NCBI RefSeq assembly: GCF_013408425.1
Contig: NZ_JACBYV010000001.1
Span: 2,542,001-2,606,000 of the forward strand
Origin: Pseudomonas flavescens
GTDB taxonomy: Bacteria; Pseudomonadota; Gammaproteobacteria; Pseudomonadales; Pseudomonadaceae
Length of the DNA: 64,000 nucleotides
Reading direction: 5' to 3'
In this document: in pieces, positions 15,724 through 16,616 of the stretch
Position numbering within the stretch: position 1 is the first letter of the stretch
How the letters are laid out: the number at the start of each line of letters is the position of its first letter
Made by a program: the position numbers and the translations under genes
Notes under the pieces: model-generated
The model's input: only the letters and a program-made list of their open reading frames with translations
The model's database searches: none
Told to the model about the DNA's origin: nothing

Positions 15724-16051
15724 GGATTCGTGCACGTGGAGAGCTGGCAGGAGCCGGGCATTGCAGGAGCGGCGAACCCGCCGATCCCGCTTTTAAGCCA
15801 TTCGGCCATCTAAGGCTGCAAATAGTAATCGCATATAGCCATATCAGGATAATCCGGTAAACACGCGCGGTGCTGGAAAGCGGACGACACGGTGTGTCGA
15901 CCAGCGGCACAGAATGCCTGCACTATCGCTTGCACGCCCTGCGGCAATTGCGGCTTCCCAGCGGGCATCGGCCACTCGATCAGGTGTGGCACTGGCTTGC
16001 CCTTGAGCATTTGCCACGCTAACCTGCGCGCGTCGCTGCATATTCAGCGAC
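15724..16051. other. Gene-free stretch
   Basis: No convincing gene was found. The part near 15780-15815 resembles a tRNA D-arm and T-arm on the minus strand but lacks an anticodon arm. The region presumably holds the promoter of the diguanylate cyclase gene and the start of the plus-strand leader described next. Confidence 0.5.
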
Positions 16052-16265
16052 CGGGTTTGGCGACCCGAGTATCTCTAGGCGCACAAGCGCCCACCATCCG
16101 AAAGCAGGCGCTTTTTTGTGCCTGTAACTTCGTGCTATGGCGGCTGTGCGTGGGGCACCTTCGGGTGCGCCGGGTGCCTAGAGTCCCGGTTCGCCAACCT
16201 GCGTACAGCTGCCACCCATATCGTTTGGCGACGATTCGTGGCAGTTCCTCAACTCTAGGAGCACC
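16052..16265 (+). ncRNA. Structured 5' leader with mutually exclusive hairpins, upstream of small ORF pair
   Basis: Several complementary segments lie in order. CGGGT/ACCCG (16052-16056 with 16063-16067). GGCGC/GCGCC (16078-16082 with 16087-16091). AGCGCC/GGCGCT (16086-16091 with 16107-16112) followed by a T run to 16117. CAGGCGC/GTGCCTG (16105-16111 with 16118-16124) with the T run in its loop. A UUCG hairpin at 16155-16168. CTGCCAC/GTGGCAG (16209-16215 with 16238-16244), crossed by CGCCAA/TTGGCG (16192-16197 with 16225-16230). A long-range pairing joins 16173-16184 to 16252-16265 and covers the ribosome-binding site (AGGAG, 16257-16261) of the ORF at 16271. The architecture suggests attenuation plus translational control. 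Confidence 0.65.
16086..16117 (+). terminator. Terminator-like hairpin inside the leader
   Basis: AGCGCC (16086-16091) pairs with GGCGCT (16107-16112) and a run of T follows to 16117. There is no plus-strand gene upstream for it to terminate, because the preceding gene is on the other strand. It is therefore either an attenuator of this leader or the end of an unannotated upstream transcript. Confidence 0.5.
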
Positions 16266-16270
16266 ACCCA

Positions 16271-16348
16271 ATGAAGCACAAACACGCCCTAAATTCGTCC
16301 GCACGCCGCCCCGCTGATCACCAGAACGGAGGCCAGCGCCATGACTGA
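16271..16348 (+). CDS. 25-residue leader ORF overlapping the next gene
   Basis: ATG at 16271 with AGGAG nine bases upstream, TGA at 16346-16348. The peptide starts MKHKHALNSSARRP and ends GGQRHD; it is basic and His-rich. Its end overlaps the next start (ATG at 16341) by eight bases, which suggests translational coupling. Its own ribosome-binding site is inside the long-range stem of the leader. It may be a regulatory peptide or only a coupling device; no similarity is recognised. Confidence 0.4.
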   Translation: MKHKHALNSSARRPADHQNGGQRHD

Positions 16349-16616
16349 CCTCCTCCCACTCTCCAGCAACCCGACCACCACAGCGGTGCTGCTGATCGAC
16401 AGCAGTTGCTCGTACATGGACCTGCAGGAAAGCGTCGAACAGCGCCTCAGAGCGGTGCGCGGCCTGCTGCACAGTCTCGCCGCCATGAACATTACCCAGG
16501 CAGATGCGCTGGACGTGCAACACATAAGCGAAGCCGCGTACCTGCTTAGCGCAGACGCCTGGGACCTGGTCAGGGCAGCCCACCAGGCAGCGGTGCGGGA
16601 GGCGCGCCAGCGTTGA
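16341..16616 (+). CDS. Small conserved-looking protein, DUF3077-like
   Basis: 91 residues, GGAGG eight bases before the ATG. The sequence is helical: LLIDSSCSYMDLQESVEQRL, then AVRGLLHSLAAMNITQADAL, then ISEAAYLLSADAWDLVRAAHQ. The spacing of these helices recalls the DUF3077 family of small Pseudomonas proteins of unknown function, but the match is from memory and weak. No signal peptide or membrane segment. Its expression is probably controlled by the structured leader upstream and by coupling to the 25-codon ORF. Confidence 0.6.
   Translation: MTDLLPLSSNPTTTAVLLIDSSCSYMDLQESVEQRLRAVRGLLHSLAAMNITQADALDVQHISEAAYLLSADAWDLVRAAHQAAVREARQR

Follow-up and report, generated by a model that had tools for sequence, protein, structure and literature searches.

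The genes c4, icd and ant follow one another in this order in phage P1, and the C4 antisense RNA of this family is characterised as a trans-acting product of processing, about 77 nt in length. In the CI RNA/seqA immunity of P4, an antisense RNA is cut from the leader of the very transcript that it stops. The c4 RNA of P1 has been reported to repress the synthesis of Ant in trans (PMC8546580) and to bind around the ribosome-binding site and underlie the heteroimmunity of P1 and P7 (PMC12197685). For Gifsy-1, where the layout is isrK-orf45-anrP, IsrK has been reported to activate its downstream gene in trans (PMC4825925), and c4 antisense RNA has been listed by Weinberg and others in 2010 for 'Proteobacteria, phages' (PMC2864571). 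No description of chromosomal C4 sets in Pseudomonas has been found among the titles and abstract openings of the literature searched, in which most subscription journals are not covered.

The locus considered here lies in a window of 64 kb (the whole stretch of Pseudomonas flavescens DNA that has been analysed), and the element that it contains is a known RNA, the C4 family, together with its target, and not the undescribed cis-regulatory RNA as which a preliminary description had presented it. The Rfam search that this description had itself proposed has returned RF01695 (C4 antisense RNA) with 84.2 bits against a cut-off of 45, aligned over positions 1-87 of the 87 in the model, and RF03163 (c4-a1b1), the upstream target of C4, with 63.7 bits against 46.7 (Table 1); both are far over the cut-off, and they are the sole Rfam matches over cut-off within the window. 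A match to isrK (RF01394) at 16032-16118 stays below its cut-off, with 47.2 bits against 50. The RNA family itself is already known, and what is new is the chromosomal setting and the scale of the C4 copies.

With the C4 RNAs of P1 and P7, the locus has in common the RNA fold, the loops a' and b', an upstream a1b1 and a target on the ribosome-binding site, and with their immI region (c4-icd-ant) a short ORF, of 25 codons here, that overlaps the next gene and is putatively coupled to it; this leader ORF holds the same position as icd of P1 and orf45 of Gifsy-1. The locus departs from P1 and P7 in that the system is chromosomal, with 17, 24 and 34 copies per genome and codes that differ among the paralogues, and in that its downstream genes are mostly small-protein genes and not Ant, the window copy being without an antirepressor and not in an evident prophage. 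The isrK-orf45-anrP arrangement of Gifsy-1 shares with the locus the isrK-like leader and a small upstream ORF overlapping the next gene, whereas the isrK score in the window is under cut-off, the target gene is no antirepressor by Pfam, and IsrK has been reported to activate (PMC4825925). The likeness to the CI RNA/seqA system of P4, which is named in the same source (PMC4825925), is proposed to lie in the origin of an antisense RNA from the leader of a transcript, although the locus is without a replication operon.

Table 1. Features of the C4 locus in window coordinates; fractions in the last column are Watson-Crick pairs summed over ten copies of family A, unless a single copy is named.
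Feature	Position	Strand	Basis
Promoter-like pair TTGCCC (15997-16002), 17 nt, TAACCT (16020-16025)	15997-16025	+	Inferred from conservation
c4-a1b1 target element; a1 TTGGCGA at 16057-16063	16019-16071	+	Rfam RF03163; a'/a1 70/70
b1, upstream target of loop b'	16072-16079	+	b'/b1 74/80; 7/8 in the window copy
Terminator-like hairpin AAGCGCC...GGCGCTT, then T run	16085-16117	+	Sequence; 3' part of the sub-cut-off isrK-like match
C4 antisense RNA; b' 16177-16184, a' 16191-16197	16133-16219	+	Rfam RF01695
C4 3' arm, contains CTGCCAC 16209-16215	within 16133-16219	+	Sequence
a2 target hairpin, TTGGCGA 16225-16231 in the loop	16220-16235	+	a'/a2 70/70
Possible third target site GTGGCAG, between a2 and b2, opposite the C4 3' arm	16238-16244	+	Covariation
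b2 target ACTCTAGG (16252-16259) and Shine-Dalgarno AGGAG (16257-16261) of the leader ORF	16252-16261	+	b'/b2 80/80
25-codon leader ORF (MKHKHALNSSARRPADHQNGGQRHD)	16271-16348	+	Translation; ATG kept in 10/10 aligned copies
91-aa gene, family A; Shine-Dalgarno-like GGAGG 16328-16332	16341-16616	+	ORF; nine paralogues behind C4

The motifs on which the preliminary description was built have all been found where it placed them: GGTGC (16173-16177) and CTAGAGT (16178-16184) stand against ACTCTAG (16252-16258) and GCACC (16261-16265) around the AGGAG, and CGCCAA (16192-16197) and TTGGCG (16225-16230) are as exactly placed as CTGCCAC and GTGGCAG (Table 1). The 25-codon ORF, the end of which overlaps the start of the 91-aa ORF by 8 nt, has likewise held, and so has the masked ribosome-binding site, with b2 covering the putative Shine-Dalgarno sequence of this ORF. 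The proposed long-range stem equals the b'/b2 pairing extended by GGTGC/GCACC, and to that extent it stands; as a fold of one molecule it gives way to the C4 cloverleaf, which is retained in the minimum-energy form of 16133-16352 while the long-range stem is not (single-strand fold, z -2.3; 2 of 200 shuffles equally stable). Similarly, the crossing pairs are present, CGCCAA/TTGGCG being a'/a2, but the pseudoknot-like reading in cis is better replaced by that of an antisense RNA against its target. Further upstream, the promoter-like pair falls within a block (GcTtgCcct..cgCTAaccT) that is kept in the ten-copy alignment and upstream of which conservation ends; a strict sigma-70 scan has reported no promoter at this pair, and a simple terminator scan (loop up to 8 nt) none at the terminator-like hairpin. 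A sigma-54 promoter, considered by eye for the TGGCAC...TTGC upstream of C4 in the window, has been rejected for its wrong spacing.

The genome to which the window belongs (5.95 Mb, one contig) carries 17 C4 loci over the cut-off, spaced by at least 9.59 kb, and two fully scored congeners, G061 and G100, carry 24 and 34, a 35th match of G100 (39.6 bits) being under the cut-off and not counted. Throughout the genus, C4 has been found in at least 184 of 199 Pseudomonas genomes, in 183 of these over the cut-off, by a survey that scored at most 20 candidates per genome and the counts of which are lower bounds. The class sample has it in 17 of 273 other genomes (18 of 274 including that of the window), with one to six copies each. 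Three of the 26 loci fetched outside the genus (L075-L100) group with a Bro-N-like set, and L075 (same order) groups with family A, L077 (same family) with family B and L089 with the DUF set; the small-protein form is therefore not confined to the genus. Tandem arrangements have been observed as well: four C4 matches follow one another within 1.4 kb in a genome from another family of the class (G459 contig C9, 1700-3092), and in G061 two C4s are found at L106 (868644 and 868796, starts 152 nt apart) and at L074 (1136623 and 1136789, 166 nt), neither locus having an assigned small gene behind its C4s.

In the window genome, ten C4s precede genes of family A, to which the 91-aa gene belongs, five precede family B and two antirepressor-like genes, both of which match antirepressor families in PHROGs and one of which, at L016, matches Bro-N in Pfam. 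For six of the family A copies a leader of 23-25 codons with ATG has been listed, the leaders of the other four having been missed by the start-codon rule of the script; the ATG itself is kept in all ten.

The conservation of a regulatory RNA, as it had been expected from the window alone, appears well supported by the RF01695 match together with pairings that are kept while their letters change. Because b2 is interrupted by a gap in the MAFFT alignment of the module, pairs have been counted by a motif-anchored script. In the ten family A copies, b'/b2 is complete (shuffled partners average 50.5 of 80 and never exceed 76), and b'/b1, for which shuffling yields at most 67, has one mismatch each in the window copy and in five other copies; for the equally complete pairings of a', the sites a1 and a2 have been picked as the best per locus, which favours them, and the same picked sites underlie the shuffle controls (9 and 12 of 20000). 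Covariation extends to homologues beyond this family, since the a and b pairings are kept across the 17 C4 loci of the genome: by ungapped score, none of 20000 permutations of the partners attains the observed mean in any of the four pairings; by duplex energy, none of 20000 does so for b-b1, b-b2 or a-a1, and 36 do for a-a2. When own and permuted partners have been compared for the four pairings in the three genomes (17, 22 and 34 loci, with two of the 22 G061 loci being tandem C4s entered once each), 0 of 20000 has been obtained in 11 of 12 tests and 1 of 20000 in the twelfth. A third pair, CTGCCAC/GTGGCAG, has given 0 of 20000 both in the window genome and in 79 named DUF3077 loci, is weaker in G100 (62 of 20000) and is not clear in G061 (1505 of 20000; 20 loci, the tandem loci L074 and L106 having been dropped from the profile and from this test); this pairing would compete with the main stem of C4.

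Regarding the genes behind C4, the 91-aa protein has no Pfam or NCBIfam match and a weak PHROG match (E 0.088) to an anti-restriction family. A pattern search for its family in named genomes has yielded 19 stretches, of which none is a relative. A shared-word search of 5.8 billion proteins has given eight relatives, nine paralogues follow C4 in the same genome, and profile comparison ties the protein firmly to the wider family A and weakly to family B and DUF3077. Its predicted structure, strand-strand-helix-helix with a helical hairpin (mean pLDDT 82.5), has returned no informative match. DUF6124 and DUF3077 are both absent from the window genome. In the congeners, a C4 on the same strand precedes, by no more than 600 nt, 19 of the 22 DUF6124 matches of G100 and 5 of the 7 of G061; for DUF3077 the corresponding counts are 7 of 8 and 5 of 8. 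Some genes match both families, and the counts include matches with E up to 0.001 under the curated cut-off (for DUF6124, 1 of 22 and 2 of 7). Among named DUF3077 loci (the best 80 of 488, all from Pseudomonas), C4 stands 39-152 nt upstream in 79, which is an upper view as the query alignment was built from C4-linked loci, a bias that the 7 of 8 and 5 of 8 lack. Rfam has confirmed C4 in 20 of 20 sampled loci of this kind, with c4-a1b1 over cut-off in 12, and the own pairing in the 79 loci, which comprise 43 b targets and 5 a targets, exceeds the permuted one (0 of 20000). For 70 of these loci the start is defined; GGA, AGG or GAG falls within b2 or directly beside it in 68 of them, and the median distance from the end of b2 to the start codon is 6 nt, a position which suggests that C4 targets the DUF3077 gene directly and that no leader is involved. 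Such C4 loci upstream of small genes bear out the mention, in the preliminary description, of similar leaders in other Pseudomonas.

Two further observations concern the surroundings of these genes. Of the 20 C4-DUF3077 loci scanned with Rfam, 6 (L159, L179, L187, L211, L215, L219) have a tRNA gene upstream, at a distance of up to about 1.2 kb, and a tRNA-adjacent position resembles that of elements integrating at tRNAs. In 18 loci (L019-L022, L026, L027, L031, L033, L034, L040, L041, L044, L127, L128, L132, L133, L137, L140), C4 is followed by a leader ORF of some 50 codons (MHALNPSKIRAAAHRAMALAALHANSSLATRLSRYNAHMSKARALE...) that is conserved, at about 1594-1811 in locus orientation; unlike the leader of 25 codons, it looks like a real small protein.

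A QslA-family gene (PF18226) follows in two of the five family B copies of the window genome (L014, L015). Among the QslA-family loci fetched from the matches listed, C4 is found 404-436 nt upstream in 17 of 30 (L227-L243), these being 17 of the 18 loci with E of 1e-25 or better; no C4 has been found at L244 or at the twelve weaker-scoring loci L245-L256, in agreement with Rfam for all 13. In the six loci with both genes identified (L014, L015, L018, L130, L134, L136), C4 and qslA are separated by a family B gene, an arrangement that L227-L243 may share to judge from their spacing and the start of the leader, and the codes of the loci with C4, leader, family B gene and qslA have been seen by eye to differ from one another. 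QslA has been described as an antiactivator that binds LasR (PMC5767178).

As read from the loops and their targets, the addresses differ between copies. Among the ten family A copies, b occurs in seven codes and a in four, and no two copies have the same (a,b) pair. L006, the window copy, and L003 of the same genome are 96% identical both in the protein and, outside the b loop, in C4, while the b loop differs and both targets have changed along with it. At 90% of the cognate score, a match of both arms to a second target in the genome is absent for 17 of 17 C4s in the window genome, 22 of 22 in G061 (22 loci for 24 C4s) and 31 of 34 in G100, where a full cross-match is present for three. By plain ranking of a+b, the own target is strictly best in 15 of 17, 15 of 22 and 16 of 34, and full cross-matches, counted as ordered pairs, amount to 0, 0 and 5 against 1.5, 1.3 and 3.4 expected with independent arms. 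Because few cross-matches are expected anyway and the own target is often not strictly best, selection for orthogonality of the addresses is suggested and not proven.

The region matches 34 phage records, 33 of them of Pseudomonas, with 69.9-81.2% identity over 13-44% of the query, and C4 is present in six of six records examined. Behind C4, PAJU2 has a Bro-N gene and DVM-2008 a DUF6124 gene, Rha genes lie near C4 in phiAH14b and CF3a, and in the small records phiAH14b and vB_Pae_U10 the C4 region is located among early regulatory genes. By tblastn, no phage record has been found to encode the 91-aa protein, and the a1-b1 code of the window, searched as an exact pattern, has 0 matches in viral contigs. 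On the chromosomes, a crude test has placed an integrase-domain gene within 20 kb of C4 in 2 of 17 cases in the window genome, 0 of 24 in G061 and 1 of 34 in G100, and none within 20 kb of the window copy, the neighbours of which are GGDEF, dicarboxylate symporter and histidine kinase genes. Nine of ten neighbour proteins picked from nine loci (33 listed) match ordinary Pfam families, among them RuvC, MFS and aldo-keto reductase, one matches none, and phage families are not among the ten. A prophage is thus not evident around the chromosomal C4 copies, and we infer a phage origin with later domestication of the C4 module; as the 91-aa gene is no antirepressor by Pfam, the job of the module in the phage would not have been kept.

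We consider it highly probable that the locus is a self-contained C4-type antisense switch, a phage module that has been domesticated and multiplied in Pseudomonas as mutually insulated copies. A single transcript would begin just upstream of a1b1 and pass the terminator-like hairpin, which would have to be leaky, before continuing through C4, the leader ORF and the 91-aa gene. The C4 RNA would be excised, and its exposed loops would bind a2 and the b2 on the Shine-Dalgarno sequence of the leader ORF, and also a1b1, so that translation of the leader and thereby of the coupled 91-aa gene would be blocked, and transcription would probably end early upon C4 pairing. The 91-aa protein would be produced only if C4 falls short of its target, and the private two-part address (a,b) of each copy would keep the copies from silencing one another. 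The sign of the control may be more complex than repression, since activation in trans of the gene downstream has been reported for IsrK, which is related to the upstream part.

The same base pairs could also form within one transcript, b' and a' folding back on the b2 and a2 of their own molecule, with no separate antisense RNA involved; covariation is blind to the difference between cis and trans, and the third pair of the C4 3' arm with GTGGCAG is present as well. Such a purely cis element is nevertheless unlikely, because the second targets a1 (7 of 7) and b1 (7 or 8 of 8) are kept upstream in ten of ten copies, where they would be superfluous for a cis lock, and the long-range stem is absent from the minimum-energy fold. 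A role of the chromosomal C4 RNAs as a bank of immunities, silencing incoming phages or satellites with a matching a2b2 target, has in its favour the common scaffold of the phage C4 loci and the finding that, for four of six phages, 2, 5, 1 and 7 of 152 chromosomal C4s reach 90% of the cognate score against the target in each arm. We hold this role to be very improbable, as two of the six phages are left unmatched, the counts of 5 and 7 belong to phages whose b targets are short and weak, the matches may be due to chance, and the window's own code is absent, as an exact pattern, from viral contigs. The least credible reading, for which we see hardly any probability, takes the copies as relics, that is, non-working immunity regions left behind by lost prophages: although phage records match the region, two of 17 copies still precede antirepressor-like genes and the two tandem C4 loci of G061 are without an assigned small gene, the pairing has been kept under changing letters, C4 is spread over nearly all congeneric genomes sampled (at least 184 of 199), integrase-domain genes are rarely near C4s, and the sampled neighbours belong to ordinary families.

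Taking the antisense switch as the preferred reading, its extension to the whole genus, namely an orthogonal set of C4 switches, often tens per chromosome, that is selected against cross-talk and in which each member is addressed by two short loops in a combination seldom found twice in one genome and controls a small protein of anti-regulator type with QslA at one end, has in our estimate about an even chance of being correct. DUF3077 and DUF6124, which are barely studied Pfam families, would gain a shared control logic along with families A and B. The copies constitute a natural set of seemingly insulated antisense pairs in one cell, which is suited to the study of how RNA specificity diverges after duplication, and they suggest a possible route of control for qslA-like antiactivator genes in some Pseudomonas.
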